A stretch of DNA of 64,000 nt, taken from Sycon ciliatum. Its lineage: Eukaryota; Porifera; Calcarea; Leucosolenida; Sycettidae. Below, piece by piece: positions 12,435 through 62,755 of the stretch (within the stretch, counting starts at the first letter, position 1; each line of letters begins with the position of its first letter). The translations under genes were made by a program, and so were the position numbers. Under the pieces are notes generated by a model. That model was not told where the DNA came from. It searched no databases and worked only from the letters and a program-made list of their open reading frames with translations. The stretch covers positions 11,343,192-11,407,191 of the forward strand of contig NC_088653.1 in the NCBI RefSeq assembly GCF_964019385.1, read 5' to 3'.

Positions 12435-12533
12435 ATTATTCCTTGGTTCCAACGAATGTCCAGAAGTGAGAAGATATTCCACTGTGAAAACACCGACAAA
12501 CCATGCTGCACGATGTAATGGTGTGTTACCCTC
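12435..12533 (-). CDS. Ankyrin-repeat exon (copy C)
   Basis: Exactly 99 bp and 33 codons on the minus strand, in one open frame. It begins with GNTPLHRAA and contains VEYLLTSGHSLEP, the canonical ankyrin repeat (TPLH helix 1, then VEYLL helix 2). The upstream border is CTACTTCCAG|G (acceptor) and the downstream border is AAT|GTAAGT (donor). One exon equals one repeat and is phase-symmetric, so gain or loss keeps the frame. Its helix-1 residues (WFVGVF) are less canonical than in the other copies. Ankyrin repeats are protein-binding modules; the parent gene is not identified. Confidence 0.8.
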
Positions 12534-12552
12534 CTGGAAGTAGCAGCAAATT

Positions 12553-12646
12553 AAAGACAAGACATGTACACACATACACACATTCATACACATGTTGATG
12601 CACACACACCCTTGCACGCACACACACACACACTCATGCATGCATG

Positions 12647-12697
<51 letters not shown>

Positions 12698-12890
12698 ACA
12701 CACAAACACACACACAAACACTAAAAACACACACACACCTCAGATCCCAGATCTCAGACCTGCCCATCGCAGAAGCAATGGTAAAGAACAGCTACGACAC
12801 AGCAACTAGTGATGGGATAACACAAACACACACAAACACACACACACGCACACACACACACACAAACACACATACACACACACTTTTTTT
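12553..12890. repeat. CA microsatellite next to ankyrin exon
   Basis: Two CA-rich tracts (about 12565-12740 and 12822-12885) are separated by a conserved intron sequence. In gene orientation they are TG-rich tracts lying just upstream of the 3' splice site. Long His/Thr frames over them are artefacts. Confidence 0.95.
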
Positions 12891-13199
12891 ACAAGATAAC
12901 CACAAACCATCATGGTGCAAACGCCGGCAAAAACGCACAGAGATGCGCATAGCGATGGCAGCTGAAGCAGTGGAGGCGCGGCAAGAGCAGCTAAACCGAC
13001 CAGGGATCTCGGCCTCAGCACTGCTCATGCGCGCCAAACAGAAAAATACGAAAATAGAAAAAAATGAGCAGGAGCACTACAGAGCAAATGTGAAATAAGG
13101 GTGGCAGCACGGTCACGGAATGTTGTTAAATGGGTTGAAAAAAGTTGAGGTTCAGGTACACCATACATTGACTGCATACGCCCAGCAGCAGGTACCCGA

Positions 13200-13255
13200 A
13201 ATCATACACACACGCACGCGCGTGCGCGCGCACACACACACGCACATGCGAACAG

Positions 13256-19942: not shown

Positions 19943-22342
19943 TCACCGAAAACGCACGGGTTGCTGCAAATCGGCTCGGTTGCGCAAAACAGGGCCAGGC
20001 TGCACAACAGCAGGCTCATGCAAAGGCAGCAGCACAACACAATCATCCAAATCATTATCTGCAGGCACACTAGCACAGCTGTCATCAGCGCACACATCTG
20101 CAGCAGGATCATACTTCAATAAATCAATATTGATAACCTTTTCGCCAGAACCATCTGTATGAATAATGACAACAGTAGATGGCGAAATGACAGATTTAAT
20201 AAGCCAACCACCTTCGTACGGCGAAAGACACTTCTGATGACGTGTTGGGCGACAGAGCATAACTGGTGTGTCGATACTGTATGGACATTCAAAGGCATCG
20301 CTCGGTACAGGATCTTCCTTCGACAATTCCATCTCAATGTGGTCACGGATCTGCGCGCTACGTTGTTGCAAATGGTCTACCCACGCACCGGATGACATGC
20401 TCGGCTGCTCAGACTCCACAATCACATTGGTCGGCTGCCAACCACACATGGCTTTCATTGGCGAAATGCCAGTTACTGAATGCGGCCGTACTCGGTAATG
20501 GTGTAGCAGCAGATCGAGATCAGAACGCCAATCTCTTGACTCTCGCAGTACTTTCCGAATCAAAGTAAGTAGCGTGCTGTTGAACCGCTCGGCTGCTCCC
20601 TGCGATTGAGGGTGCCTAACAGCTCCATGACATACGGTAACACCAAATTTGGTGAATAGGGCTTCCACGATGACGTTCACGAACTCTGTTCCATTATCGC
20701 ATCGAATTACACGGGGCGGTCCCCAGCGACAGCACACAGACACAACAGCTTGCGCCACACTAGCACCATCATGGTGACGTAACGGGATGACTTCGGCATA
20801 TTTGCTGAACATATCCACACACACTAGAACGCAGTGAAATCGATCATCTCCACCTAGTTCTAAAGTGTCAATCTGCACGACTTCCCACAGATGGGACGGA
20901 ATCACAGCACGCGCTGGCAGGGCACGAGGGCCACGACGAGGATTCGCTGCTTGGCATTGACCGCACGCCTTGACGAACTGCTGACACAATGACGACATGT
21001 TCGGCATGAAACAATGCGAACGCAGAAATTGCCACATGGTTTCCCATCCAGCATGGCCAATGACACGATGAACAGCCACTAATACGCGCTCATGTAAAGA
21101 CGACGGAATAACAGGCACAGACACTTCTTCATTCACAGGAAGCTTGACCGTACGGATCAATAAGCCATCAACTACGGACAGTTGAGACTTGACCTTGCAG
21201 TACGCATCAACAGAGACATCTTCACCAACAGTCAACTGCGCAACGACACGCGCAATAACTGGATCGTTCTTCTGTGCAGCAGCTATCTCAGCTAACGGGA
21301 CAGGACTGGTCGAAATCGCGGCAGCTGTAGCGACAGTGGCAACACTATCCGCCGATGCGTCGGTCTCACGCTGCTGCTGCTGCTTCCAGTACCGCATGTA
21401 CCGCTCGGGCACACGGGCCAGTTGATTCGCCAGGTTCTGCTTCGACGGAACCCACACTACTTTGACAATCATGTCCGATGTAGCGACCAGGTCTTCAATG
21501 ATCTGCAAACGACGTTCAACAAGAACTTGCTGCAATCCGCTGACTTTCCAACGCTTCAAATTATCAAGCAGTGACGTCAGCCAGCCATAGACGGTTTTCG
21601 AATCGGTGTGCAAAACGAGATTCTGCACATTCCACTTGGACGCAAGTGCAAGACCCTGGATAGCAGCATCCAGCTCTGCAATATTGATGTGACGACGGTC
21701 GTTCGGCTTCCGTAACCACGCTTGGTCTTCCACGATCTGGTCACCAACACCAATAGCGACACCGATTGCAATATCCGAAGCGTCACACCACACGCTCCAG
21801 GTGGCAGCAGTTGGGATGTTCCAAACACCTTGCACTGGGTCCTCCGCCAGCACGCGCACCATAGCTTCTTGGCACAGCCGAGTCAGCTCCTCTGGCAGCG
21901 GTTCATCCCAGCCACGAACCAACGATGCGAGCCGCTTCAACCATGAACACAGCGGTCTCAGCCATGAGAAGACGGGGTAGTGGCTGGTCAGCTTCCCACA
22001 CCACTGAAATACATTCCGCTTGGTTGCCAACTGTGGTGCTTCGATGTCTGTGATGTCGCGCCGTTGCCAGCGCACTCCGTCACTAGCAGATGACAGCTTC
22101 AAACCAAGGACAGTGGCTTCGTGAAGCTTCACAGCAGGCTTTGTAGGCAGACCGTAGGTCTCTAAGCAAGCAGACACAGACTCTGACTGCTCGGACGGAA
22201 CAATGATGTCGTCGATAAAGTTATCAGCATCGGGAAACTCACGGATGGAGTATTTCACAATAGCATCCATCAGCTTTGGCGCCACACTAAGACCAAAGGC
22301 CATCCGCTCCATGCAGTAAGTCTTTCCCTGCCACACGATGGT
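19943..22342 (-). pseudogene. Element A pol, C-terminal half (RT end, RNase H, integrase)
   Basis: About 800 open codons, entering from the element B insertion at 22342. In order: RT palm with MAFGLSVAPKLM and FIDDIIV; an RNase H domain with VWCDASD, NIAELD and HTDSKTVYGW; an integrase zinc domain ending CGQCQAAN; and the catalytic core with QIDTLE, RCDNGTEF (the second Asp is codon 20698-20696) and AAERFN. The D, D and E residues all appear present. Apparent codons upstream of 22342 belong to LTR B. The half-protein is separated from its N-terminus by the nested element, so it cannot be made as one chain. Confidence 0.85.
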
Positions 22343-23078
22343 TGTGGGAGAACTGGAGCTATCTAGTCTCTCTATCACCCCTCTTCGCCCAACACAACAC
22401 ACCAGCGCAAACGGCAGCCTCTTGGTGGAAACGTATGAATCACGAAAAATGCAAGTAGGAAAAGGAGAGAGAACAAGAAAAGAACAACAAGAACACAAAA
22501 TCACGAGCACTTCAGCCAGGAAAAGACACGTCTAAAACATGGCGTCCAACATGGCGGCAGAGCAACCGATAGAGGCCCGTCGTGGCTGAAGCTGCTATTG
22601 CAGCGACAGCCATCACGGCCACCATTGAATGCAGAAAATAGATAAGAAAACGAAGTCGAGCAACAGCAACTCGAACGAAGCAAAGAAAACAACAAGACTA
22701 CGCGCAGCAAGCAAAGGCATAGCGATGACATCATTACTCACGCGTGAACACAGAATCTAGCATGCGCATGCAGCCTTGCAGGCGCTGGCGAAATAAATAA
22801 TGAAGTCAAGACACAAATAAATAACACAACGATCGATCGTTGCAGGAAAACAGTTACAATTCAAATATACTACTTCAAGGAAAGATGAGAAGTGAAACGA
22901 CTAGCACTAGAAGAAATAGAATAGAATATAGAACAAGGACAATGGAAGCGGACTACGGATGAAGCAAAAATGAGGTAAGAGGCATGACACACTGATGACA
23001 GATGTCACCACAACAAATACATAATCGTAATGTTTGTCTACACACACATTGTATCGTCACACTAAATACATTGTCACA
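22343..23078 (-). repeat. LTR B, 3' copy
   Basis: 736 bp, plus-strand ends TGTGGGAGAACTGG and ATTGTCACA. It is nearly identical to 27480-28215. The pol stop codon (23076-23074) lies within its first bases. Confidence 0.95.
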
Positions 23079-26000
23079 TCTCCCCCTGGTGACATCGCGT
23101 CAACAGTTTTCTACGGTAACGAACAGGAGGAACAAGACCAGCACGGTTGCGAAGACGATGACCACCAACTTGAAGTGGTTGGGCTGGTACATCAGAATCA
23201 GAATCACTAGTACTTGAAGCACATGCATCATCATACTCAGGCACACTCACACTTGACGGCTTAATTAGATCAATATTGACAGTCTTCATCGAATGTCGAC
23301 CATTAGTGTCTCGAACAATTACAACAGTTGATGGAGACACAACACTATCAACTGTCCATCCAGACTCGTACAGCGCTGTTCGCTTCTGGCGGCGATCTCC
23401 TTGCCGCAACATCACCGTGGAACCAACACTGTAGGGGTTCACACACCCAACAGGCTGAACAAAATCAGCAGAGGACAACTCACTTTCCACGTAGTCTCGC
23501 ACAACAGCCGCTTTACTATACAAGCTATCAACCCATGCACTGGGGGACATGTCACAACGCTCATCGTCCACAATCAAGCCATGGGGAACCCAGCCACACA
23601 TGGCTTCACTTGGGGAAACACCAAGCGCAGAGTGGGGACGAATACGATAATAGTACAATAATACATTTAAAGCAGACACCCAATCGTCGGATTCCTGCAC
23701 AATCTTGCGAATTAAAGTCAGCAAAGTCCGGTTAAAACGCTCTACACCACCTTGACTCTGCGGATGACGCACTGCACCATGTCGCACCTCTACACCAAAT
23801 GCATCATACAAAGACGTAACTACCTGATTGACAAATTCTGTTCCATTGTTACAACGTACAACTGCTGGGGCACCCCAGCGGGAACATACATCCACAAACG
23901 CAGCTGCTACAGACGGACCATCATGGCGAACCAATGGGACAACCTCGACCCACTTCGTAAACATATCGGTACAGACAAGAACACAATGATACCGATGGCT
24001 TCTATTCGGGCCCAACTCCAGGGTATCGAGCTGTACTACATTCCACGGACCAGATGGAATAACCAGACGTGTTGGCTCTGCAACAGGCCCACGCTTCGAA
24101 TTAGCAGCAGCACACACATCACACGACTGAATCAACGACTGACAAACAACAGCCATATTTGCAAAATAACAACTCGCACGCAACAGCTTCCATGTGGTCT
24201 CCCAACTGGAATGACCGCTCACAGCATGGGCACGACACACCACTCGTTGCTGCAATGACTGAGACACAACTGGTACAACACGCACATCATTCGGCGGTAC
24301 CTTCACACTACGATACAAGTAACCATCATCAGATACAGACAACTGAGACTTCAATTTCTTAAATACCGGGTCGGAAATCTCACGACCATGACGCACAGAC
24401 TCAATCACACTAACAACAACAGGATCAGACTTCTGCGCATCAAGAATGTCCTGTAACACAATAGCACTCACAATCTTCGGGGGTGCAGAGACGGCAGCAA
24501 CTACATCTGGCTTGGCTGATTTCTTCCAGCAGCGGATGAACAAATCTGGGACACGCGTCAGCTTGTCAGCCTTGTTCTGCTGGGACGGTACCCACTCAAT
24601 GGTGACGGACAGCTTCGCGGTCGCGACAATGTCGTCGATGATGTTTAGTCGTCGGCGAACTAACACTTCGTTCAGACCGGACACCTTGACACGCCGCTCA
24701 TTGTTCAGGCACGACTTCACCCAGCCGTACACGGTCTTGGAATCAGTGACAAGACGGATGTTGCTGGCGTTCCATTCGACTGCCGTCGACAACCCACGGA
24801 TTACTGCTTCCAATTCTGCGATGTTGATATGCTTCTTCTCGTCGGCATCGCGAAGCCAAGACTTGTCCTCCATGACTTCACCACCAACTTCGGCAACAAT
24901 GCCATATGCGACATCAGACGCATCGCACCACACGGTGAGCTGCTGCTCGTTCACTGACGCATTCCACACGCCTGTGGCCGGATCCTCATCTTGGACGCGA
25001 CTTGCTAGTTCGGCACAACAGGTTACCACATCATTGGGGACGTCATCATCCCAACCACCACCATCACGACATGCTAGGCGCTTCAGAAAGCTGCAGGCAG
25101 GTCGCAGCCACGAGCACACGGGATAGTGCGATACCAGTCGGCCGCACCACGAGAATACACCACGCTTGGTCAGCTTGCCACACTCGAGACTCACTCCGTC
25201 TCGACGCTTCCAACGGGTTTGACCATCTTGGCCAGTGAACAGCTGAAGTCCAAGTACTCGGGCGGAACTGGCGGGCTCAGCTGGCTTCGTCCGCAGGCCA
25301 TAGCGCTCGAGGGTATCCGCAACAGCCTTTTTCTGCGGTTTCGGGACGTACAGATCGTCAACGTAATTGTCAACACCATCATGATCTCGCGTGCACCACT
25401 TGACTATTACGTCCGTGAACTTCGGTACAACACTTAACCCGAAAGCCATGCGGGTCATCACGTACAGCTTTCCCCTCCATTTCACGCACTGATACCAAAG
25501 CAACTCAGGTGACATACGGACTTGCAGATAGGCCTTTCGAATATCCAACATCTCATACTTGTTGGCATCGTGCGTACGCCACTCACGCAACTTCTCGCCA
25601 CACACGGAGGCATCCATACCGGGCTGAGAAACGAGGGCACGGTTCAGCGCACGGTAGTCGAGGCAAGGCCTAACTGGTGTAGTAGGCTTGTGCTCCTGGC
25701 TGACTGCAAGCCATGGCAGAATTGCAGCAGGAGCTCCGTGTACCTCTTCATCATGCTCGATGAGCCATCCGTTACCGATCCAGGAGTCCACTTCATGCTG
25801 GAACAGCTTCTCCTGATCATCGCTAAGTTTCCGGGGGTACTCCCCAATGCCGCTGCCGATGCGTCCGGTAGGTGGCTTGTCGTCCTTCCACCTCCATGCT
25901 GCCTGCCAACACTGCTCAGCTGCTAGCCACTTTATCTGACCATCCTCGACAGATAGCGTCACGTCCTCACCATCTTGCACCACGCTAACATGCCGAGACG

Positions 26001-27000
26001 GGTGTTGATCCGGCGACTGCAGAGCATCACTAACGACAGACGACACAGGCTCAGGGTCACTGGCGGGTGACGGACCAAACAACACGGACCGCAGATCACC
26101 TGACTCAGAGTACTGCAACCTGACGCCACCAATAGCACGGACAAGGTCAGATCCCAGCAACAGGTCAGCATTAATAACCGACAGCTCAGGAACTACAAAC
26201 GCAACAACACGGGTAGGCGGCAAATTTACGGGTCCATCCAGGCGACGAATCGTTAGTGAAATTGACCCCGAAATCGGCAGGGCTTCGCCATCCAGGGCGA
26301 GGAGCTTCTCCTGCTTTACCGCCGACACTTGGTTGCACATCTTAGCCGCACGTATAAAGCCAGACGACACTAGCGTGCGAGCCGACCCGGTGTCCAGCAT
26401 GGCCTCTCCACGGCACCAGTCATCCGGCTTGGCCGACTCCACGTCCACATAGATCCTCGGCAAGGGGGCAGCTTCAGTGGACACCGCACACAGGCACTTG
26501 TTACTGCTACTATGCGACGTACCAGCAGCTGCCACACGTTCTGCTGCCTTGGCTTCTCGCCACTTCCTTCTCTCAGGGCACGCTGGCTTTGCATGACCAG
26601 GCTGATCACAAAAGTGGCACACTACTGGTCCACTGAAACGGGGCTTCTGCTTCTTCTTGAACTCTGGGCAGTTACGCTGGACATGCCCAGGCTGATTACA
26701 GTTATAGCAGACAACAGTACTGCGAGGTCGGTGTACACCTCCACTGTAACTACTGGTACTGGCACTAGCAGAAACGCTCTGGCTGAACCTGCTCGTGTAC
26801 CGAGCATCGGTCTCACTGGCTCTGAGCGCACGCACACGCTCTAGACACGCAGGTATCGTCAGCTCTTGGCCAGCCAGTGACATTCTCAGCTGGCGGCCAA
26901 ATTCGGGCTGTAGACCAGCGATCAGTTGCTCGATCACGATCGGATCCTCTGGCGGTACCACCCGGTTTGTGCCCCGACAGCGCTGCATAACGCTGCAAAT
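23074..27000 (-). CDS. Element B gag-pol polyprotein (gag C-terminus, PR, RT, RNase H, IN)
   Basis: A single open frame of about 1,300 codons on the minus strand; the nominal frame start at 27060 is not the real start. Counting from there: two CCHC knuckles at residues 118-131 and 148-161, aspartic protease motif LDTGSA near 222-227, RT palm with MAFGLSVVPKF and YVDD at 25365-25354, RNase H with CDASD, NIAELE and VTDSKTVYGW, integrase zinc domain with SCDVCAAAN, and the DDE core with QLDTLE and VERFNRT. The second catalytic Asp is Asn (codon 23850-23848, RCNNGTEF). Gag and pol share one frame with no separate shift. A frameshift separates this frame from the gag start at 27316. Confidence 0.85.
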   Translation of the reverse strand: MCSVMQRCRGTNRVVPPEDPIVIEQLIAGLQPEFGRQLRMSLAGQELTIPACLERVRALRASETDARYTSRFSQSVSASASTSSYSGGVHRPRSTVVCYNCNQPGHVQRNCPEFKKKQKPRFSGPVVCHFCDQPGHAKPACPERRKWREAKAAERVAAAGTSHSSSNKCLCAVSTEAAPLPRIYVDVESAKPDDWCRGEAMLDTGSARTLVSSGFIRAAKMCNQVSAVKQEKLLALDGEALPISGSISLTIRRLDGPVNLPPTRVVAFVVPELSVINADLLLGSDLVRAIGGVRLQYSESGDLRSVLFGPSPASDPEPVSSVVSDALQSPDQHPSRHVSVVQDGEDVTLSVEDGQIKWLAAEQCWQAAWRWKDDKPPTGRIGSGIGEYPRKLSDDQEKLFQHEVDSWIGNGWLIEHDEEVHGAPAAILPWLAVSQEHKPTTPVRPCLDYRALNRALVSQPGMDASVCGEKLREWRTHDANKYEMLDIRKAYLQVRMSPELLWYQCVKWRGKLYVMTRMAFGLSVVPKFTDVIVKWCTRDHDGVDNYVDDLYVPKPQKKAVADTLERYGLRTKPAEPASSARVLGLQLFTGQDGQTRWKRRDGVSLECGKLTKRGVFSWCGRLVSHYPVCSWLRPACSFLKRLACRDGGGWDDDVPNDVVTCCAELASRVQDEDPATGVWNASVNEQQLTVWCDASDVAYGIVAEVGGEVMEDKSWLRDADEKKHINIAELEAVIRGLSTAVEWNASNIRLVTDSKTVYGWVKSCLNNERRVKVSGLNEVLVRRRLNIIDDIVATAKLSVTIEWVPSQQNKADKLTRVPDLFIRCWKKSAKPDVVAAVSAPPKIVSAIVLQDILDAQKSDPVVVSVIESVRHGREISDPVFKKLKSQLSVSDDGYLYRSVKVPPNDVRVVPVVSQSLQQRVVCRAHAVSGHSSWETTWKLLRASCYFANMAVVCQSLIQSCDVCAAANSKRGPVAEPTRLVIPSGPWNVVQLDTLELGPNRSHRYHCVLVCTDMFTKWVEVVPLVRHDGPSVAAAFVDVCSRWGAPAVVRCNNGTEFVNQVVTSLYDAFGVEVRHGAVRHPQSQGGVERFNRTLLTLIRKIVQESDDWVSALNVLLYYYRIRPHSALGVSPSEAMCGWVPHGLIVDDERCDMSPSAWVDSLYSKAAVVRDYVESELSSADFVQPVGCVNPYSVGSTVMLRQGDRRQKRTALYESGWTVDSVVSPSTVVIVRDTNGRHSMKTVNIDLIKPSSVSVPEYDDACASSTSDSDSDVPAQPLQVGGHRLRNRAGLVPPVRYRRKLLTRCHQGEM
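23079..23091 (-). other. Polypurine tract of element B, inside pol
   Basis: The minus-strand sequence CACCAGGGGGAGA directly precedes the LTR. It also encodes the last pol residues (HQGE), so priming signal and coding sequence overlap. Confidence 0.75.
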
Positions 27001-27316
27001 CGGCCACATACGCGTCGACACTTTCATCCACACGCAAACAACGGCGCTTGAACAAATCATACGCTCTGGACGGCGTCACACTGAACGCACTCACTAAAAC
27101 TTTCTTGACCTCTGCTTGTTTGCTTTTGTCACTCTCTGCCATACGAGAAAACACTCGAAATGCATCGCCCTGCAAATATAAGGGTAGATGTTGCATGCGT
27201 GCATCTTCGTCGGACCATTCCTTGGCAGTGGCCAAAACTAAAAACTTTGCCCAGAATTCCTCTAGGTCTTCACCATCCTTGCCAGAAAACGGCTGGACAA
27301 GATACTTGGTAGACAT
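26960..27316 (-). CDS. Element B gag N-terminus (frameshifted from the rest)
   Basis: ATG 27316 opens a frame with KDGEDLEEFWAKFLVLATA, YLQGDAFRVFSRM, and RRCLRVDESVDAYVADLQ. This is a gag capsid-like region parallel to the element A gag. Around 26990-26960 the homologous reading passes into the frame of the long polyprotein. The nominal frame stop at 26813 is therefore beyond the shift. The shift could be a mutation or, less likely, programmed; the A gag gives no sign of a shift at the same place. Confidence 0.75.
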
Positions 27317-42212: not shown

Positions 42213-42235
42213 AGATACAGTTCAGGGCACACTGA

Positions 42236-42427: not shown

Positions 42428-42443
42428 TGATGGTGGTGGCCCT

Positions 42444-46726: not shown

Positions 46727-46825
46727 ATTATTCTTTGGTTCCAACGAATGTCCAGCAGTGTGAAGATAATCTACTACAGAAACATTACCATAATCTGCTG
46801 CATGATGTAATGGTGTGTCACCATC
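46727..46825 (-). CDS. Ankyrin-repeat exon (copy A)
   Basis: 99 bp: DGDTPLHHAADYGNVSVVDY followed by LHTAGHSLEPKNN, a complete 33-residue ankyrin repeat. The acceptor is GCTTCTTCCAG|G and the donor is AAT|GTAAGT. It differs from copy B by only a few residues (D/A at position 1, YG/FD in the middle), reflecting the segmental duplication. No stop or frameshift, so it is likely still coding. The parent protein is not identified; ankyrin repeats normally form stacked binding scaffolds. Confidence 0.85.
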
Positions 46826-46859
46826 CTGGAAGAAGCAGCAAAATTAAAGACAAGACATG

Positions 46860-47377
46860 TACACACATACCCACATACATACACATGTTGATGCACATAC
46901 ACACACACACACACACACACATGCACGTGCACACACACATCCAAAAACACATACGTAAACACAAACACACACACACAGACCTCAGATCTCAGACCTGCCC
47001 ATCGTAGAACCAATGATAGCGAACAGCTACGTTAGACATAGCAACTGGTGCTAGGATTACACACACACAGACAAACATACACATACACCATACACATACA
47101 TACACACACACTGACACACACACACACACTCACACACACACACACACTCACACACACACAAACACACATACAAATACACATACACACACACTCACACACA
47201 TACACTTAAACACACACATACACTTAAACACACACATACACTTAAACACACACATACACTTAAACACACACATACACTTAAACACACACATACACTTAAA
47301 CACACACATACATACACATACACATACACATACGCATATGCATACACCCACACACATACACACCCACACCCACACAC

Positions 47378-51989: not shown

Positions 51990-52870
51990 CCGTGTCAGAC
52001 CACGGTGGATATGAGCTCGCCTTCCTGCTGGTGGATTTTAGAGGGCCATCTCTCTCAAGAACACTCATGAATTTAGTGTGCCAAGTGCTCGACATCTCAT
52101 CAGTGGAGGAAGTCGATTGGAGCATGCCCAGGTTGGCATTGGAAAGCTCATCGCGAAATTCTGGATGGTTTATGGTTCTGCGTGTTGCTGGTTAGCCCCA
52201 TCCCTCACACAAACAAGTCAAGAAAGAGTCATCTTTGGATTGCAGAGTGCTGGCTTCAAAACAACTCGTTTGAAGCTCAAAGTAGAGTTGTGATTAGCTC
52301 AAAGTAAAGCTGCTGCTGTTAGCTCAAAGTAGAGCTGTGATTAGCTCAAAGTAGAGCTGCAGTTAGCTCAAAGTAGAGCTGCTGTTAGCTGAAAGTAGAG
52401 CTGCTGTTAGCTCAAAGTAGAGCTGCTGTTAGCTCAATGTAGAGCTGCAATGCTAAATGGATGTAAGATGGCGCAAGCCAGAGCCGCAGCAAATAGCTAC
52501 ATAACACCAGTTGTGAGAGTGGACCCGATTAGTGGGTACGGTAATTATAATGATGGTGTGAATAGGTTGGATAGGGAGGGATAGTGAGAAAAGAAACACT
52601 GATGAAGCACGATCCGTTGTCTGGAAGAGCACAACCGGGTAAGCAAGATTTGTTTTTCTTTTCAGCAAAACGGGCTGGTGCCATTAGTGATTACGCAGGA
52701 AAACAAAGTGCATGACGTCAGTCTTGAATGCAGTACAAAGCAATGCAAGGCGCTGTGTGCGCTAGTTCGGATTGTTGCTAACAAATACTAGCACAGCTAG
52801 CCCCCCATTAGCCCCATCCCTGTTAGCCCAGAGCAGAGCTGGCGTTAGCTCAAAGTAGAACTGCGGTTAG
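51990..52870 (-). mobile_element. Internally deleted copy of the LINE + DIRS-like block
   Basis: 51990-52205 matches the LINE linker (40795-41015). 52206-52526 matches the DIRS 3' side with the minisatellite, and about 52580-52807 matches the 5' side (44275-44490). The whole DIRS coding region (equivalent to 41346-44280) is replaced by about 55 bp. The 602-bp remnant 52206-52807 is flanked by a perfect 14-bp direct repeat TTAGCCCCATCCCT (52192-52205 and 52808-52821). Confidence 0.75.
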
Positions 52871-53342
52871 CTCGAGCGTTGAACCCGGGTTCTTAATCCA
52901 CCATACCCAGTTCACAAGGTTGGGCGGGGTTGTGATCAGGCTTTCATTTCATATTTTCTTATTTCATATTATTTCTGCTTTTCATCTCATTACAAAAATT
53001 CTGCGCATTTTTCTCCATCTGCGCATAAAATGAGCCAGAGCGAGCTAAAACATTACCACAGCTTTTTTGGAAAAAGTCGAGAAAATCGCGATTTGAATTC
53101 CGCTGCCAAAAATACGAAGTGCAGTGCAACGCGAGTCGCTGTTGTTGTTCTCCTCGGTCGACTGGACTGTTCCCGATGCTTTTCTTTGTTGCAAGTAAGT
53201 TTATTTGTTTGAGTTTGTATTCCATGTTGCACTGAGTCGCCTAAAACTGATCGTCATCGATGTATCGACCAAAGAGCCTAGTAGTAGTCATGAACTGCGG
53301 AGCGGAAGAAGACGACATCCTCGCACTTCAAGCGCAGGATGA

Positions 53343-53741
53343 AAATATTTTGAGGATTCCGGTCGGAAAAAGAAGGAAGACAACGTTGGCTACAGCGACG
53401 ATTCATTTGAGGGCAACACTTTCATCGAGTGTAAAAGAATTGACGCTGGTAGTCCCACGATCTGCTGTGACGAGGAATTCTACTCTGATGACAACCTGGC
53501 AAGCGAGTCGGCCGATGATTTCGCCAGAATGGACATCGCTGCACATATCCTGGATAATGCCAGTATTGGTTGCAAGTGCAAAAACAATGAATGGACTATG
53601 CTGCTCCCTCAACTTGCTCAAGTCGATAATTTGAGTACCCTTATGCGGAACATCGCTATCACGAGCAGTAGGCAGCGAAAGCAGTACTCTCTGACGAGCG
53701 GACTCACCGTGTGCAGATGGGCTTTGGTGTGGGAAATATGA
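53343..53741 (+). pseudogene. Unrecognised frame (copy B)
   Basis: A cleaner version of 39350-39741: KKKEDNVGYSDDSFEGN, an acidic region, then ESADDFARMDIAAHILDNAS and LLPQLAQVDNLSTL, ending ALVWEI. About 130 codons are open. Downstream pieces in other frames to about 54170 suggest a once longer protein. No family recognised. Confidence 0.4.
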
Positions 53742-54363
53742 GTGCAACGTCGAGTATGTTGAGGAAGACTGTGTGCAGCAGTGTATACTGTATATCTGAA
53801 AGTACAGGTGGAGTGTGATGGAGTTAACGTGGAGTGGCAACTTCTTCGGCCAGCTACAGATGTTGACCGTGTTTTCGCTGATGGTTCTCCAGTGGTGCTC
53901 CAACCAGGAGGTATTTCGCACACCCAGCTCAGCTGCCTATATACATTTTGAATGTAGCCGAGTACCTGTCCGCTCATGCTATAAGACCCTGGACAGAGGA
54001 ATTGTGACCCGGAAAGGATGAACCAAGGGATATATCAACTGTGGGCAAGAATGACAATCCCATTGCTGTACATAGAATTTCACCATTTCAACAGTGCTGC
54101 ATATAATACCGTTGTAGCAACACTTAGATATGTCAGATCAATCCAAAACTTTCAGACAGTGAACATTAGGTGTGGTTGATCATTTTTGAACAAAAAAGTG
54201 AAAATCGAATTTTTGGTCTGTGGTCATATTTTAGCGTGCTCTGGCTCAAATCTAGACTGACAACCTGCTTGTTAAATCATGCACCTGCTTTCAGGCGTAA
54301 AAACCCTGTTGTTGAGGTCTCAGTCCTCATTTGTTAGACCTAACTGTCTTTATAAATGTAACT

Positions 54364-54366
<3 letters not shown>

Positions 54367-54415
<49 letters not shown>
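54367..54415. repeat. CT microsatellite (copy B)
   Basis: Expanded version of the tract at 40366-40386. Confidence 0.9.
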
Positions 54416-55444
54416 TTCTTTCTTGATATCGAACATATTTACTATTGATCACGACGTATCCATTCTTGTTGAGCTTTGTATTATTTATCCGCGCTCTTAT
54501 CCATTTTCCAATACTATTTTTCTAGTATTATTATGAGTGCACAAGATGACGTAGGTCGCCATTTTCTCCATGTGATCTTGGTGCGCAAGGCTTGATCCTT
54601 TTTCTCTTGCTCTTTTAGTTTTAGTTCTTCTTGTGCAAAAGCAAGTAATTGGTCCAATGTCGAGTGGGCTGTGAGTGTTTGCAAAGGATATCCGTTCGTC
54701 CATGGCAGCCTGTATGCAAAGTAGAGATAGGTGCTGTCCTTGTCCTGACGCAACTGACGATGTAGCCTGTTCTTGCGACACTGGACTTGTTACAATTCCC
54801 TGTCAGACCACGGTGGATATGCGCTCGCCTTCCTGCTGGCGGATTTAAGAGGGCCATGTCTGTCAAGAACGCTCATGAATTTAGTTTGCCAAGTGCTCCA
54901 CATCTCATCAGTGGAGGAAGTCATTTGGAACACGCCTAGGTTTGCGTTGGCAAGTTCATCCCGAAATTCTGGAAGGTTCATGGTACGCATATTGCTGTTA
55001 AGCCCCAACCCTCACACAAACAAGTCAAGAAAGAGTCATCTTTGGATTAAGGAGTGCTGGTTTCAAAACAACTCGTTTAAAGCTCAAAGTAGAGCTGCTG
55101 CTAGCTCAGAGCAGAGCTGCTGTTAGCTCAGAGCAGAGCTGGCGTTAGCTCAAAGTAGAGCTGCGGCTAGCTCAAAGTAGAGCTGCTGTTAGCTCAAAGT
55201 AGAGGTGCTGTAAGCTCCAAGTAGAGCTGCTGTTAGCTCAAAGTAGAGCTGCTGTTAGCTCAAAGTAGAGCGGCAATGCTAAATGGATGTAATATAGCGT
55301 AAGCACAGTTGTGAGAGTGGACCCATGAAACCAGCACTCCGTCACCTAAGCACTATTGATGCACATGAAGGGTCAATTAATTTCAGGACAGTCAAGAGTT
55401 GTACAGCTAGAGTTCAGAAGCTCATTACTCATGCGAGTCGGGCA

Positions 55445-56191
55445 TCATGGCATCCATGACACGGCAGCGAGCCGGTACGACAGCTGGCGCTTAGCGCTTG
55501 TTGTAGTCCGGATGTAGCATAGACACGCATCGCTCTTCCGCTGACCCGCCACTCGGAAGAAGGAGTCGGGGACACCAGCCATACCAGTGGTGGTGGCTGC
55601 ACGGATGTGGACTGAATGCCCGGAGCAGTTCGACTGGGATAGTACACAGGCCGCAACGACAAGAGACCATACTGTTACTGTGAATGACTGCCTGGTCAGC
55701 TGCTGTCCGTTCGAGAGTACGAACAAGAGTTGCTCCAGTCCCTCGCGACGAGTGACAAATGGGTAGCTAACCATGGCACGGACCGGGCAGTACGGCGGTA
55801 CAGACGGGTCAATGTCACTGGTAACGTCTATACCGAATGCGTCTGTCTTGGATGAAAGCAGGAGGAGTTGCAGGCGTCCGTCACCCGGAGACCTAGTGCA
55901 GCCCCGTGTGATGCCATCAGTAAATTCGGCACACAGAAGAAATCCAAAGAACGCTAGCAGCATGGCGGCTTGGTAGAGCAACTTGTCATGGCCATTCAGG
56001 ATACTACTTTTCCGGCGTGCATCCATCAGGTGTCGTAGGATTGGCATAGTGATAGGTAGGCGAGTTGTGAGTACAGCCGTACCATGGCATCGCTGGATGC
56101 TCTTCATCACCCTCTTCAGAAGGCAAGCATCTACTAAGGGCCCTGCAAACCCATTCTCAAGATGGGCTTTACGCACCACACTCACATACAC
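55445..56191 (-). pseudogene. DIRS-like tyrosine recombinase (copy B), one open frame
   Basis: 248 codons: VDACLLKRVMKSIQR, LPITMPILRHLMDARRKSS, HDKLLYQAAMLLAFFGFLLC, SSKTDAFGIDVTSDIDPS, NGQQLTRQSFTV, SGHSVHIRAATTTGMAGVPD and the Tyr in DACLCYIRT. The conserved His is present (GHSVH), but the Arg of H-x-x-R is His. A recombinase without that Arg is not expected to cleave. The real start may lie upstream, fused to the missing RNase H. Confidence 0.8.
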
Positions 56192-56422
56192 AGATACAGT
56201 TCAGGGCACACTGATCATAGATGAAGCATGAATGAGCGTCCAGCAACGATGACTCGGGCATCAAAAGTGAGCTTCCCCAGGAGGGACTCGAGTTGACGCT
56301 GGCCGATGCTGCGCTCGCTGATAGTAGCCATGACTGGCTCACGGATCTCAAACAGCTTGTCCTCTGGTAGCGGAGCTTCATGGCGCTCGCAGTCTAGGGA
56401 GGTCGATGATGGTGGTGGCCCT

Positions 56423-56865
56423 TCAAGCTTGTATGTAGCAAGGAGGAATGCCGAGATACGTGAATGCCCGGAGGGGGATGGTCAGTTGCTGGTCGGATGC
56501 AACCAAACCAGTGGAGATATCAAGAAAGTCATCGAGGTAATGAAGGTGGTGATCTATAGCAAACTCGTGCTGCATGATCCAGTTGACTGCTGTGGCTACT
56601 GAGTCAAAGATGGCTGGGCTGGAGCGAAGGCCGAAAGGCAGAAAGCGCTCATAGTAGTTGGAGCCTTCCCAGAGAAGTCCTGACGGCGGACTGCGATCTG
56701 CCGAAATGCACTGCGTAAATCGAGCTTGGACAAATAAACCGGCTGTGGGCATGACATTATGATGTTGATTGCGTTGTCAATGCTCACGCAGAGCAGAGAG
56801 AGCGGCTCAGCAGAAATGCTGTTGTTCACGCGCATGCCCTCCGGATTGGACAGATGGTGGATCAA
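56423..56865 (-). pseudogene. DIRS-like reverse transcriptase (copy B)
   Basis: Frames 56865-56596 and 56752-56423 carry YLSKLDLRSAFRQIAVRRQD and, after a shift, FLPFGLRSSPAIFDSVATAV with YLDD at 56539-56528. These are DIRS/Ngaro-type motifs. Confidence 0.8.
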
Positions 56866-56884
56866 TCATCGCTTGAAATTCTTT

Positions 56885-58010
56885 TTAGGGACGGCACCAA
56901 TTCCAGCGCATGAACTGAAATGGAGGTGACGAAAATGGGCCTGTGGTCTTGCTGCAGGCGCAGGAAGCAATTAATTGCTCGAAAATAAATGCCGGCTGAG
57001 TGAAAGCCGAGGGCAGATTATTAGAGAAAACCAAAATGTCGTGTTTGCTGGCAGATACAAGAGCAAAGCCATGACGCAGGGCATGGAGAACTTTCGCAAC
57101 ACATAATTGATCTGGGTGGCTACGTAACAGGCGGGCAAAGTGGTCAGCTAGCAGTGTGGTGTCTGCAGAGTGTATAGGAAAGAAGCTACGTACCGAGTCA
57201 AGCGATTCAGTAGCCATTCTGCTAGGAGCGGCGGGGTGGTCGATTGGCTCTGCGCTGCTGCTGGTTGCACCTGATGCATGGGTGGTCCTTGCCACACTGG
57301 CTGCAGGTGTGGGACAAGCCACACGACGATGAAGAATAGCGACCTCCGTTGACATTCCGGCAGATTTCGTGGCCGTCGCTGGTATGGGTGCGACCACTGG
57401 AGGTACATGCTGATGGCTTGGGGAATTGAGATTGGGGACGAAAAGCAGCGTCTGACATTGAGCACGTTTTGGGTGTGCATGGCCTGTGAAAGCTATCAGC
57501 CATAGGTTCACGTCGACGGTGTTCAACCTCTTCGTGCCTGGTTACTGGGCCACGAGCATCCGCAGCTTGCGGTCGTACTCTAGCCGTGGGCTTGGGAAGA
57601 ACTGGCGGTTAGCAGTCAGGATCAACTGCTGGTACGCAATCAGTTCAGTAGATCAGCAGTGCGGTGTGGGGCAGCAGCCGTGATAACAGACATGTATGCG
57701 GTCCATGCCTCGAGCTGGGTAGCAATATCGTGAACCTTGCGACGCACCTGCTTTGCGTCATCCGACTCAACGATATTTAGCTGACCATCGTTATTCGGGC
57801 TGTGTACCAGCCAGAATGTTGAGCCGGAAGTGTTGGCGGCCGACAAAGCCGACTACACCTCATCCCGTACGAGAGCGCAGGGATCCGTTGAGCCCGCGTG
57901 ACCTGAGCTGGCGGAGGAGGCATTGGTGCCAGTCGGGCTTCTGGGCTCGCGAGCCGTGTCTGCACTGTCATGTTGCTGGTTCTCCTGGCGGGAGCATACC
58001 TCACAACCAA
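56885..58010 (-). pseudogene. DIRS-like gag and RT N-terminus (copy B)
   Basis: Frame 57526-56885 holds VNLWLIAFTGHAHPKRAQC, and its later part (VLHALRHGFAL) is already RT-like. A third frame (57503-57222) holds the gag cysteine/histidine cluster CGLSHTCSQCGKDHPCIRC, characteristic of DIRS-type gag. The N-terminal piece lies at 57846-57640 and upstream. Frames are broken by small indels. Confidence 0.75.
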
Positions 58011-59534
58011 GGGCTGGCTGTGCCAGCAAACGGTCCTGTAAAATACTTTTACTCAGTTTCCTTTCGGATTCAAGCTGCGCTGAGAAACCGGGCCGCGGAG
58101 GGCCTGGCAATACATTGCCTTGACAGTGTCGACAGTTAGGTCAGACATACTGAAGAAATAAAATGTTGAGGTGACACTCAGGCTGGCAGCAAAGCTATGA
58201 AAGGAAAAGAAACACTGCTGAAGCACGATCCGTTGTCTGGAAGAGCACCAAAAGAAACACTGCTGAAGAACGATCCGTTGTCTGGAAGAGCACAACATGG
58301 CCAGCAAGATTTGATTGGCTGGTGCCATTTGTGATAACGCAGCAAAACATAGCGCATGACGTCAGTCTTGAATGCAGTACAGAGCAATGCAGTGCAGTGT
58401 GTGCGCTAGTTCGGATTGTTGCTAACAAGTACTAGCACAGCTAGTACCCCATTAAACTTGCTCCCTGGCGATGAGAGGAGTGTTGATGCTTAGCAGACAG
58501 TAGCGCGAGGTCCAGTCTAGCATGTACGGCCGAGTGATCACTCAGAGTACAGGGTATGACATTGCAGGAGACTGTAGCAGGGCTACTGGTGAGGATCAGG
58601 TCCAATGTCGTGCTGGCTGGTCATCTTGGGGTTACTAGTATTCGGGTTGGGAAAGAGTCTAGATTTATCAAACCGAGAGAGTGAATTCAAACATTGAAAT
58701 GGTGGAGCTGGGGTGTTGCAGCTGAGCTAACTTTAATGTTGAAGTCAACGAAAAGGGTGACAGATGGAGATACCACTGAAGCCCGGTGAAGAGCCTGCTC
58801 AAATCTGTCCTGGTAATGAATTGATTCAGCAGGGGGGGGGGGGGGGGGGGTGATAAATACACGCAAAAAGGTGTCTCTGTCTAGAGTGGGGCAGACTGAT
58901 CCACACACCTTCAATACCATCCACCTTCAGATCTTCAGATCTGGCTGTATGGTGACAGGAAGAGTAGCCCTGTAATACAGGCACACACCTCCACCAGGAC
59001 GGCCGGCTCGATCCAGCCTGGCAAGGCTTTATCCAGATATATCGATCTCATTGTTAGCTACTGTCTTGGTGAACCAAGTCTCGGCCACACCGACAATGCC
59101 CCAGTCCATCGAATGCACCAGGTCTGACAGTTCATGCATTTTTTAGCGTACACTACAAAATTAATTTTGAGGAATACAATGGTCATATTTTGCTCCGATG
59201 TTGCAAGCACTGTTCTTGTAACAGTGGGTTGGAATGCTTTAGCGTTAGGATTTAGAGGAACTAGGGTATGATGAGCAGAGGTTGTCGGAAGATGGTGCTG
59301 TTGTCAAGTTAGCACTCAAATGTTATTCCGTTGATTGTGACCTGTGCGCCACTGTTATTCGTATCTTCAGCACCTGAAACTTCGTCACGTTCAGCTGCAG
59401 TGGAGAAAACATTGGCGAGTTTGGCAGCTCGGGGAGTTGCTGGGAATGTATTCTTCCCTGACGCCATGGTGAATCCATCTTTGTCATTGTCAGGTGAGCG
59501 ATGGGGTGCCTTCCGCTCAGGTCAATTTGTTTTA

Positions 59535-60470
59535 TTCCCGTAGCTATGCAGAAGTTGTTACTTCAGTAACGTCTGGCGCTAGCCAGGGTCCACACAGCTT
59601 TAATTTGGTATTTGTGTGTTTTGTGTGTTTGTTTGTTTGTTTGTGTCACGCCTGGCGCTATCCGTATCTGACGGGAAAAAAGCATAGGTTGTTATAAATT
59701 TTTCGATTTTTCCTATTTTTTTTCAGGCAAATCCTGGGATTCGAACCCGCACTATCGCCCTACATGCATTCCCCCATACAATCCGCATTAATACCCATTC
59801 TTCCAAGTTTCTTCACGTTATTATCTTGCGTTTGAAAGCCCTATTTAAATATTGCGGGCAGCTGTATGTGGCCAGCTGTGTTTGATGGTACGGTACTGGA
59901 GACGGTGTCGTATTACCCTCGATCGTACCTGTCCCGTTCCTATCCACTACCGTACCGTGCCATCAAAGACGGCTGGCCACAATGCATATTCAAATAGGGC
60001 TTTCAAATGCAAGATCACAATATGAAACAACTTGGAAGAATTAGTATGGTATATACAGAAGCCTTGCTTGGTAGTTTAACATGTTTTTCGATTTTGACAG
60101 CATGTTACAAGGCGAGGACGCGTAGTGCTCCTGACTTCAACCATAACCCGGTTCCGGGGTTTTCCCAATACGGTTCAGATGGTCGCAAGACCGGGACTCT
60201 GTCAACCGGGTTATGGTTGTAGTCAGGAGCACTACGCGTCCTCGCCTTGTAACATGCTGTCAAAATCGAAAAACAAAAAAGAAATAGTATGTATGCGAAG
60301 TGTATCGGGGGATGCATGCAGGGCGCGCGATAGTGCGGGTTCGAATCCCAGGTTATGTCTTAAAAAAAAGAATTTTTTTACAGAATTTATAACATCTCTA
60401 TGCTTTTTTTTATCTAAGTCATCAAGGCAAAAAAAAGCATAGCGTAGGGCCCTGAGCTTCCAAGCTCTCT
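59535..60470. mobile_element. Large palindromic foldback element with tRNA-like ends (copy B only)
   Basis: Compared with copy A this is an insertion of about 930 bp. Left arm 59680-59895 pairs with 59955-60050 and 60290-60410 on the opposite strand. The outer arms each carry GGTTCGAATCC, a pol III B-box (minus at about 59740, plus at about 60340), beside GATAGTGCGG. Ends are CCCGTAGCTATGC and GCATAGCGTAGGG. A smaller hairpin insertion splits the right arm. No transposase. It resembles a foldback made from two head-to-head tRNA-derived repeats. Confidence 0.7.
60049..60284. mobile_element. Hairpin insertion nested in the foldback arm
   Basis: Arms of 71 bp (60083-60153 and 60204-60274) are reverse complements with one mismatch, around a 50-bp loop. 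TAGTATG occurs on both sides (60042-60048 and 60285-60291), a candidate 7-bp target duplication. The left arm of the outer element has no such insertion, so it is younger. Confidence 0.75.
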
Positions 60471-60923
60471 CGTTTCATCTGGTTTGACACCAGAGGGAAG
60501 CAGCAGTCCAATAAAAAAGGCATGGTCCTGGGAAGGCTGCCACTCGGCTGTATAGAACATACTCGAGTCATTTCTAACAGGTATACATACACACAGGATT
60601 GAATGATTCCAGAGCGCCAAAAACTGCGTCCACTCGCCAGCTGGTGTTGGGGTTGCTGGGGTGGCAAAATCATCTGTAGAAGGTGACGTGCATCTCGACA
60701 ATGCATATTGTACAGGTGGCAAAAGTAGGTTCCCTCCCCGATTAGGCGATGGCCACCACGTTGGATGAGTTGAGCCAGAGTGGTTTGTGCAGGGCTCATT
60801 CACACGACCCTGCCATTCTCCAGGACCGGGGGGGGGGGGGGCACCTGGAGTCCAGCATTCAAGAAGGTTTCCGGATAAAGCCGAGATGCTGCGGTCCTCA
60901 AAGTGCCAACGTGGAACCATATA

Positions 60924-61971
60924 CTTCCTCCGTTAACAAAAACTTCGTGATGGATTTTTGTGGGACTGGTTTGCGCACAAACTGCCGTAAAATGAGTTGC
61001 AGTCGCTTTCTTGGCCTTCCCTGGCGGGCCATGAAAGAGGTACGATTCAAGGAAAGCGACCTTTCACAACAAGCCGAGCGGAATCGATGGTTGCGCTGTG
61101 GAAACATAGGTGATGACAGTTATGGCGAGCAAAACTGAAATACCACTTCTCCGAGGGGATATTGCGTTGCTTAGCCTCTCTACTACTCTAGCACTGAGTC
61201 AGTTGGAGAGTGATAAAGAGCGATCAAACTGAACAGCGAGTCCACACAATGAGCGAGTGAACAAGGAGCTGGTCCGATCGCACGGCTCAATGAAAATAAT
61301 TCTGAGCTCAAGTTCTTGTTCAACCTGCGCAAAGCCCAGATTCGAATGCTGATGACCATGTATTCTTTAAGAAGTCTGCAGTCCGATGCAAGTCTCGTGG
61401 CTAAAGAAAGTCGACTGGACTTGCTAGCCGCTGCCGTTCAGTGCTGGCAGGGGTATCCATCAGAGAAAATGGAATCAGTTTGGCTGTGCCTTTACTCCTC
61501 GTTTCGCGGAGTTCTGGAGAGCGAAGATGAAAACAGGGAGTCGTATAATAATTTTACGACCCCCTGGTGGAAACGAGGAATCGCCATCGCGGCGGATCAC
61601 GCAGCTTGAAAGCCAACTACTTACTTGAACGACGGCTACATCAAGCTCAGCAGAGTGTGATCAAAGAAGCCGAGCCAAGGCTGAAACGAGCTGAACAATG
61701 ATTCGAGAGAGATGACGACTCGTGTGCAGCAGATGACGACTCGTGTGCAGCAGATGACGACAGCGACGCAGGGTCAAAAATAAGTCAAGCGAAAGCGACG
61801 CAAACTGAACTCTCTGCTCATTCCGCCAACAGTTTCTCTTGTAAAGACGCTGTACATAGGCTGAATCTCCTTCGTCCAGTGATTTGATGTCGATACAAAC
61901 TGTTCTTGACCTGTTCTAAGCGTTTTCATATCCATCAAAATCCATCACGAAGTTTTTGTTAACGGAGGAAG
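60924..61971. mobile_element. TA-target DNA transposon with cargo-like frame (copy B only)
   Basis: 1,048 bp with 35-bp perfect terminal inverted repeats (start CTTCCTCCGTTAACAAAAAC), flanked by TA at 60922-60923 and 61972-61973. Copy A shows the empty site (CCATATACCAG at 46037-46047). TA duplication suggests Tc1/mariner-type mobilisation, but these termini are not ones I recognise. Internal frames do not contain a D-D-D/E transposase. Confidence 0.85.
61295..61609 (+). CDS. Unrecognised frame inside the TA-target element
   Basis: About 100 codons with FNLRKAQIRMLMTMYSLRSL, LAAAVQCWQGYPSEKMESVW and FTTPWWKRGIAIAADHAA. A shorter upstream frame (about 60951-61138) has SRFLGLPWRAMKEVRFKESD. 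Neither resembles a known transposase. After the stop a 21-bp unit is tandemly duplicated (61711-61752). The frames may be exons of a captured gene or of an unusual transposase. Confidence 0.3.
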   Translation, partial: NNSELKFLFNLRKAQIRMLMTMYSLRSLQSDASLVAKESRLDLLAAAVQCWQGYPSEKMESVWLCLYSSFRGVLESEDENRESYNNFTTPWWKRGIAIAADHAA

Positions 61972-62656
61972 TACCAGATCTTTTCAAAACATTGGACTTA
62001 CGAGCACGTTTGATGTGACGCAAGTAACTCATTAATTTTTTTCCAGGCTGATGAAGCAAAGGACAACTGCTCGTTATGTTGATAGGACAAACCTTAGGCT
62101 CTTCAACAACATTCATAATAATCTAATGGTTTTGCGAGTAAACTACCGTACCTTTTCCTCAGGTGATATACAAGCAAGAGCGAACAAGAGCAAATAAATG
62201 AATTACGTACAGCAATGAGGTGATAAAACCGGGTCAAAGTAGAATAGCTAAAAACAACGGTGATAAATGCACGACCAATATACATCGTGCATATCCATAA
62301 TTCATTGTTCTTGCTCTCGTTTGCTCGTGCCGCTATATCCCCTTGTTGATGAGGAAGGAGACAATGTACGGGAGAAGAAACGTCACATTTATAAAGAGAA
62401 AGCACGGAAGTTTACTCGTAAAAAACATTTATTTTCTTAATGATGATGAACAGCCTGAAGTTTGTGCTACCACTTAGTATTATAGCATATTTGAATCGCA
62501 CGAAACCTTTTGTGGACATTAAAAATTGTCAATTGTGAATTTATAGCGTAAAACAGACCCACAGGCATTGTCAATACCCACTGAATTTATTCACCTGCGT
62601 AATTATTCTACTCATATACAAACAAGAATGCATCACGGATAATAATTATGACTTAC

Positions 62657-62755
62657 ATTATTCTTTGGTTCCAACGAATGTCCAGCAGTGTGAAGATAAT
62701 CTACTACAGAAACATTATCAAAATCTGCTGCATGATGTAATGGTGTGTCACCAGC
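62657..62755 (-). CDS. Ankyrin-repeat exon (copy B)
   Basis: 99 bp: AGDTPLHHAADFDNVSVVDY followed by LHTAGHSLEPKNN. The acceptor is GCTTCTTCCAG|G and the donor is AAT|GTAAGT. It is almost identical to copy A. The replacement of the loop Gly by Asp (DFDN for DYGN) is unusual for an ankyrin repeat and may mark early relaxation. Most 5' of the four exons in the minus-strand gene as seen here. Confidence 0.85.

Follow-up and report, generated by a model that had tools for sequence, protein, structure and literature searches.

The minus strand of the window, by which we mean the whole 64,000-nucleotide stretch of DNA analysed, carries four exons that each encode a single ankyrin repeat. They belong to a duplicated exon family whose reading frames are intact and whose amino-acid changes are in excess at the ligand face of the repeat. 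As far as sequence can tell, we consider it moderately probable that the arrays formed by these exons are giant genes whose products are binding proteins built of ankyrin repeats. Exon duplication and positive selection would have diversified them, with recognition or immunity as the probable role.

Single-repeat ankyrin exons in the window and across the genome

The four exons, E1 (62657..62755), E2 (46727..46825), E3 (35038..35136) and E4 (12435..12533), are each exactly 99 bp long, open in phase 0 and encode one ankyrin repeat. All lie on the minus strand between an AG acceptor and a GTAAGT donor, in the same phase and at the positions where a first-pass annotation of this DNA had placed them; TTCCAG precedes every one of them on the 5′ side, and GTAAGTCA follows directly on the 3′ side. 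With the gathering score of Pfam Ank (PF00023, 21.1 bits) as cut-off for an ankyrin call, all four pass, in a range of 21.6–34.5 bits: E1 scores 25.7, E2 30.8, E3, which is assigned to a sister subfamily (NSGH.LDPKD), 34.5, and E4, barely above the cut-off, 21.6 bits. Self-comparison of the window revealed DNA sequence common to all four exons, including their flanks.

A scan of 264 kb, from which four plus-strand matches of 10 residues and 8.0 bits were dropped, uncovered five further such exons on the left-hand side of the window; the 100 kb on its right-hand side contained none. A genome search lists three more still further left. The same-strand exons of the C12 array number at least 12 and extend from C12:11184463 to C12:11405946. 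The putative host gene, taken in the first-pass annotation to be spread over at least 50 kb, would have same-strand exons that reach over 221 kb, and the objection that the exons might be isolated copies without companions outside the window fails because further exons lie to its left. Genome-wide, at least 143 places are listed for the exon family; they form strand-coherent arrays, chiefly on C12, C14 and C3, and strand runs number 12 among 55 and 7 among 68, values as low as which occurred in none of 20,000 shuffles. Dropped from this count were seven matches, each covering two repeats at 36–44% identity, which represent ordinary ankyrin genes on C4, C5, C9 and C11.

All 37 family copies that we read (33 distinct, identical exons being counted once) are 99 bp long, in phase 0, free of indels and stops, and bordered by AG and GT, in a sample drawn from the best matches and hence favouring intact copies; in copy E5 the bases ahead of the AG are masked. 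The splice donor is GTAAGT in 35 copies and GTGAGT in 2. When the observed substitutions were placed at random, a mean of 10 of the 33 exons acquired a stop, and none of 5,000 simulated sets was stop-free. A stop occurs in only 1 of 150 scored matches, and that match extends beyond its exon. The uniformity of the copies, together with the DNA shared by exons and flanks in the window, argues that the exons are not chance matches. Equal-sized, one-repeat exons of uniform phase in tandem, as are characteristic of one-repeat-per-exon shuffling arrays, are what the family presents. Because all exons read are 99 bp long and both begin and end in phase 0, repeats can be gained, lost or reordered without disturbing the frame.

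We propose that the C12 array would be one very long gene whose ankyrin domain is assembled from single-repeat, phase-0 exons, and that it would be one member of a family of such arrays, each presumably forming a single transcription unit with its repeats spliced together. Neither end of the array showed a recognisable constant exon, and inspection by eye of 64 of the 100 frames kept (at least 70 aa) disclosed nothing recognisable as a constant region upstream of E1. Searches for Death and TIR domains gave no listed match inside the arrays. The same holds for NB-ARC (2 matches of 13) and, among the listed matches, for NACHT (102 scored of 452 candidates). None of 65 COR matches falls inside an array, where the exon ends are unread and a weak match could escape.

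Duplicated units and intron content

The units surrounding E1 (61972..62927) and E2 (46041..47005), both on the minus strand, are 97.5% identical over 965 bp and comprise exon and intron. Adjoining this duplicate is a second one, an intron block of 6–7 kb, with copies at 38840..45564 and 52870..59536 that are about 92–93% alike (92% over 6.8 kb). New repeats would arise when an exon and the intron beside it are duplicated in this way, in tandem or as a segment.

The introns also carry retroelement frames. Between E3 and E4 there are two on the minus strand, one with integrase and RNase H (19943..22531; Pfam rve E 9.7e-14) and one with zinc knuckle, RNase H and integrase (23074..27075; rve E 5.1e-9, Integrase_H2C2 E 7.7e-9). 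Reverse transcriptase frames are found on the plus strand between E2 and E3 (36087..36905; Pfam RVT_1 E 2e-10) and downstream of E4 (10127..10993; RVT_1 E 1.4e-27). The first-pass claim that everything between the exons is mobile DNA is borne out in part by these frames but goes too far, since each exon sits in a duplicated exon-plus-intron unit. Likewise, its description of an exon-per-repeat gene whose introns are transposon nests holds for the single repeat per exon, the shared phase and strand and the transposon frames; it missed that the exons belong to a large family that duplicates and diversifies.

Two candidates for additional coding sequence were discarded: a seemingly open frame of 922 aa next to the window results from masked letters being read through, and frames conserved within the units, considered as a second exon, turned out to overlap one another in conserved intron DNA and yielded no clear second exon. 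A Peptidase_A17 match (E 1.5e-47) at locus L025 marks an element of the BEL/Pao type, a group not known outside animals, which suggests an animal genome.

Ligand-face codons and competing explanations

Substitutions among the copies cluster at codons 1, 3, 8, 11 and 12 of the motif xGxTPLHxAAxxG, which correspond to the ankyrin ligand face. At these five codons dN/dS is 4.6, compared with 0.72 at the others. Codon 8 joined this set after inspection of the data; with a codon set fixed beforehand from DARPin design, the values are 3.3 versus 0.87 elsewhere. A single repeat was modelled with AlphaFold (mean pLDDT 68.6; 14 rows, that of E5 shifted by one codon), and the model served only for helix placement.

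Bases 1 and 2 of the five codons diverge 6.2-fold (5.1–7.7) relative to the short flanks (E5 omitted), and at 52% versus 5.3% of positions, or about 10-fold, relative to longer introns, in pairwise counts that are non-independent and can be distorted by gene conversion between copies. The latter test covers 49 pairs with at least 250 bp of aligned intron, again without E5, and its mean omits six identical-exon pairs of 55. Framework bases change near the intron rate (0.8-fold with short and 1.2-fold with long flanks), and third bases at 1.0-fold and 1.8-fold, exceeding the intron in the long-intron test (9.7% versus 5.3%). Third bases of the five codons are more variable than other third bases (0.26 versus 0.07), mostly due to codon 11; at codons 1, 3, 8 and 12 the third base is alike in 29 to 31 of the 33 exons, and the first and mostly the second bases vary. 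Even in pairs whose flanks differ by less than 2%, 49% of the bases tested are different. The E1/E2 pair displays no clear exon excess, with 3 differences in 99 bp versus 2.5% over 965 bp. Two individual cases were observed alongside: the pair L033/L035 has a burst of six differences confined to the exon, and E6–E9 are four distinct units with unchanged exons.

Fifteen further exons were also assigned, of which 12 grouped with E3, one (L072) fell into the main subfamily, to which it was not added, and two (L062 and L067) represent other families. In the sister subfamily, made up of E3 and these 12 exons, the ratio is 2.19 at the ligand-face codons versus 0.55. A third family at 20 Mb on C14 (nine distinct exons, one with its second half off the ankyrin pattern) gives little signal, 1.17 versus 0.75. 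Diversifying selection at the binding face of the repeat, as reported for brown algae, is hence seen here as well, weakly in the third family. Change at the ligand face that so far outpaces the surrounding DNA would be the pattern expected for a repertoire of recognition proteins, and the targets may be fast-changing ones (pathogen, symbiont or nonself). Splice sites, like the ankyrin framework, would be preserved by selection, which would drive amino-acid change at codons 1, 3, 8, 11 and 12; with the framework kept and the ligand-face codons changing, the family would resemble a library of ankyrin binders made by nature.

The arrays might instead be relics of a once-diversified ankyrin family that was broken up by transposons, its exons persisting with no protein made now. 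The very long introns with retroelement frames, the failure to find a constant exon and the near-identical units E6–E9, which resemble recent unselected duplication, would fit this explanation. We regard it as unlikely, though of some weight, since all 37 copies are intact with their splice sites where about 10 of 33 would be expected to contain a stop, and just one of 150 scored matches, overrunning its exon, does so, both in samples that favour intact copies. Ankyrin genes with an exon-per-repeat structure are known, and the joined repeats match chains of ankyrin-1/2, NOMPC and TRPA1, as would an ordinary conserved gene of the ankyrin or TRP-channel type with 99-bp repeat exons, as in other animals. 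It is, however, very unlikely that we are dealing with one, as at least 143 similar exons on several chromosomes are not expected of a conserved gene, nor are ligand-face codons that diverge about ten times as much as introns.

Exon and flank recur jointly, at 87–100% identity and on both strands, which could indicate that the exon is the passenger of a mobile element spreading both together. Yet all 41 main flank places (11 secondary ones of 52 being left out) lie in exon-bearing regions of C12, C14, C3 and C9 or on contig C116, with no sign of flank copies that spread independently of the exon arrays. At least 34 of the 41, among the exons listed, have a same-strand exon no more than 10 kb upstream; with the long strand runs and the protein-shaped substitutions, this renders such a passenger extremely unlikely. 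Most of the variation at the five codons could be due not to selection for change but to mutation that is locally raised or targeted, given the near-same-flank pairs, the raised third bases of these codons and the exon-limited burst in L033/L035. We consider this distinctly improbable because mutation alone would hardly respect codon positions, and codons 1, 3, 8 and 12 have an almost invariant third base; moreover, the exons are unchanged in the four units E6–E9. A combinatorial recognition system, in which alternative splicing, trans-splicing or somatic rearrangement joins phase-0 exons in varying selections and gives individuals or cells different ankyrin binding surfaces, appears rather improbable; if true, it would be a natural counterpart of DARPin libraries.

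Relation to known repeat systems

Giant ankyrin genes diversified by exon duplication and selection would have their nearest precedents, within the accessible portions of the literature, in the one-LRR-per-exon genes of brown algae and Tetrahymena and in fungal NLR ankyrin repeats. Brown-algal LRR-ROC-COR (ROCO) genes encode one LRR per exon (PMC11378527, citing Zambounis et al. 2012) and share with the present family tandem arrays of equal-sized single-repeat exons that keep one phase, a binding face under positive selection and a proposed role in recognition; alternative splicing is reported for them as well. Their exons, in contrast, are 72-bp, phase-2 LRR exons, whereas those described here are 99-bp, phase-0 ankyrin exons with no COR match in the arrays. 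Tetrahymena LRR genes contain arrays of 90-bp exons, and comparable to the present family are their thousands of exactly equal one-repeat exons in one phase, which expanded through duplication and ectopic recombination (PMC6564038); that system differs in being a ciliate one with LRR exons of 90 bp in phase 2. In fungal NLRs, mutually similar ankyrin repeats undergo concerted evolution and, like the repeats studied here, are under positive selection at five positions, all but one on the concave ligand surface (PMC4986451). The fungal repeats are part of NACHT proteins, whereas the arrays here have no listed NACHT match and, unlike the fungal genes as described there, an exon of its own for each repeat.

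Within the literature accessible to us, we recognised no account of an animal with arrays of single-repeat ankyrin exons that are under selection. One-repeat-per-exon receptors with selection at the binding face have already been described for brown-algal LRRs; an ankyrin version with well over 100 exons, in a genome that is probably an animal's, would mean that another scaffold had led to the same design. For annotators, lone 99-bp exons many kb apart in transposon-rich DNA can belong to real genes.

The ankyrin arrays would also imply that nature keeps a DARPin-like library. The joined repeats match the DARPin chain 5lec (E 1.4e-84), whose internal repeats, read from the alignment, differ from one another at columns 1, 3, 11 and 12. 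DARPins are man-made, and in the exons described here codon 8 varies as well and codons 31–33, in a further difference from DARPins, vary little in the main subfamily.

One-repeat exons of the C12 array

The first-pass annotation had proposed a minus-strand ankyrin gene with one repeat per exon, spread over at least 50 kb and with transposon nests for introns. Its four exons (E1-E4, at window positions 62657, 46727, 35038 and 12435) are indeed found at these places on the minus strand, each 99 bp long, open in phase 0 and bordered by an AG acceptor and a GTAAGTCA donor. On contig C12 of the 538-Mb genome, the window occupies positions 11343192-11407191. All four pass the curated score of the Pfam ankyrin repeat, the last one barely. 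A purpose-built profile run over 264 contiguous kb of contig C12 located nine 99-bp ankyrin exons, every one of them minus-strand. Four are those of the window, and another five lie left of it (E5-E9, starting at C12:11340591, 11333583, 11303828, 11284448 and 11276283); the run detected no such exon in the 100 kb on the window's right side. As 10,673 of the 264,000 scanned bases are N (masked or gap), further exons may have been missed. The genome search adds three minus-strand exons left of E9 (C12:11220207, 11198132 and 11184463), so that the array comprises at least 12 same-strand exons spanning 221 kb. The four exons are confirmed, and the proposed gene model finds partial support, with an array that reaches beyond the window; each array would yield one mRNA, the proteins presumably serving in recognition. 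Joined, the repeats match DARPins, ankyrins, NOMPC, TRPA1 and further ankyrin proteins.

The ankyrin exons are copies of one exon-plus-intron unit. The units of E1 and E2 are 97.5% identical over 965 bp and adjoin a 6-7 kb duplicated block at 92-93% identity. E6-E9 are 99.4-99.8% identical over 4.5-5.1 kb, encode one identical repeat and match E4 at about 91% over 2.1 kb. E3 is the most divergent of the compared C12 units. The introns of the array also hold retroelement frames, and a BEL/Pao-type element, which points to an animal genome, is located near the window.

To the left of the window, C12:11263409-11338221 (loci L011-L018) contains 8-17 kb blocks at 99.4-99.6% identity, each with the same exon; these represent either a very recent duplication or a haplotype repeated in the assembly. 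A 22-bp tandem repeat of one shared unit occurs at three places in the window's introns, in 7-9 copies each (41090-41244, 52274-52448 and 55081-55271). Right of the window, about 4.8 kb of 30-bp tandem repeats (C12:11478393-11483177, L026) have long open frames on both strands. A 251-aa minus-strand frame at window positions 55445-56200 resembles 41754-42221 and has only a sub-threshold match in Pfam, to FTR1 (19.9 versus 25.3 bits); our guess is that it is probably part of a mobile element.

An exon family on several contigs and the intactness of sampled copies

In a genome search with exon-plus-flank DNA, the best 40 of 140 candidates were scored, at 87-100% identity. In a protein search, the best 150 of 418 candidates were scored; removal of seven ordinary ankyrin genes leaves at least 143 family places, sister subfamilies included (68 on C14, 55 on C12, 13 on C3, three on C9, the other four on small contigs). 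The listed matches span roughly a single repeat, and the sole exception, which extends beyond its exon through a TGA, is also the only one of these 150 with an internal stop. Strands form 12 runs among the 55 places on C12 and 7 among the 68 on C14 (shuffle means 28.0 and 30.8; none of 20000 shuffles as low for either contig), a coherence also expected from duplication alone. On C3, all 13 listed exons share one strand. With the intron flank alone as query, all 41 main places fall either on contig C116 or in exon-bearing regions. A same-strand listed exon is present no more than 10 kb upstream of 34 of these 41, and the pattern argues against free transposition.

All 37 copies examined (nine from the 264 kb, eight from DNA-search loci and 20 others), a sample drawn from the best matches and hence biased to intact ones, are 99 bp long without indel or stop and have AG and GT borders. 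The donor is GTAAGT in 35 and GTGAGT in two. Random scattering of the substitutions observed in the 33 distinct exons gives a stop to 10 of 33 on average, and none of 5000 sets was stop-free. In the introns of these copies, indels occur at about 0.0085 events per aligned base.

Two more ankyrin families have one repeat per exon: L038 (C10, 9.53 Mb), in which two exon types alternate, and L037 with L040 (C14, 20.4 Mb), certain copies of which appear truncated or frame-shifted.

Variation at the ligand face

The consensus repeat reads xGxTPLHxAAxxGHVSVVEYLLTSGHSLEPKNN, with TPLH and AA fixed across the 33 distinct exons. Codons 1, 3, 8, 11 and 12, which we take to form the ankyrin ligand face, vary strongly, with 0.30-0.69 non-synonymous differences per site. 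A low-confidence single-repeat model predicts helices at 5-11 and 17-23, and would therefore place codons 1 and 3 ahead of the first helix, 8 and 11 within it, and 12 directly behind it. For the 33 distinct exons, dN/dS is 4.6 at these five codons, of which codon 8 was included post hoc from the data, versus 0.72 elsewhere; at codons 1, 3, 11, 12, 31 and 33, preset from DARPin design, it is 3.3 versus 0.87.

The intron served as yardstick for divergence. In 496 mutually non-independent pairs from 32 copies with about 70 bp of flank, the first two positions of the five codons diverge 6.2 times as much as the flank (5.1-7.7 by bootstrap); the corresponding factors are 0.82 for the framework and 1.04 for third bases. 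Among 49 likewise non-independent pairs with differing exons and at least 250 bp of intron, divergence amounts to 5.3% in the intron, 52% at the ligand face, 6.3% in the framework and 9.7% at third bases, the last therefore being somewhat raised. Third-base variability is 0.26 in the five codons versus 0.07 in the others, mainly due to codon 11. The distant C12 loci L033 and L035, an instructive pair, share about 3 kb at 98-98.7% identity. Six bases differ between their exons (one each in codons 1, 11, 12 and 27, two in codon 33), while the adjoining intron is free of differences over the 107 bp ahead of the exon and the 145 bp behind it; compared with the downstream intron (9/1267), Fisher's p = 3.7e-4 is descriptive, because the pair was picked out after ranking. 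E1 and E2 show no clear exon excess: 3 of 99 bases differ, all three changing the amino acid.

In the sister subfamily (thirteen distinct exons, E3 and 12 others) the comparison was replicated at 2.19 versus 0.55, with codons 18, 30 and 33 variable too; a third family (C14, 20 Mb, nine exons) gave 1.17 versus 0.75, little effect. The 33 exons carry 32 distinct five-codon combinations. Seven of the ten codon pairs lack association (permutation p > 0.05), which is present in 1-12, 3-8 and 11-12. Such patterns of variation usually reflect recognition of changing targets, and we infer this role for the repeats. On the best reading, the arrays are giant ankyrin genes whose family is diversifying.

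Relation to known repeat systems

PMC11378527 describes brown-algal ROCO genes with one LRR per 72-bp, phase 2 exon and positive selection at four sites of the concave side, and PMC6564038 describes Tetrahymena LRR genes with 90-bp, phase 2 exons. The ankyrin arrays resemble both in gene design but differ in scaffold and in their phase 0. The selection pattern is like that of fungal NLR ankyrin repeats, as portrayed in PMC4986451, where inner helices and hairpin loop are named as the ankyrin binding interface. By analogy, the arrays would work like these systems on another scaffold and in another phase. In the literature searched we recognised no description of the same ankyrin exon-array system.

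Among the genome matches listed, no NACHT, Death, NB-ARC, COR or TIR domain lies inside the arrays. The arrays are not classed as ROCO, since none of the 65 COR matches (of 96 candidates genome-wide) falls within them. COR forms clusters on C5, and NACHT also forms large clusters in the genome (best 102 of 452 candidates scored). The NACHT clusters among these 102, with many frames of 900-1200 aa, lie at C14:0.2-2.8 Mb, C12:21.3-22.9 Mb, C5:36.5-38.5 Mb and C4:29.6-29.8 Mb; the COR (ROCO-type) clusters, on a single strand with about 830-920 aa per frame, are at C5:5.3-5.6 Mb and C5:22.5-23.5 Mb.
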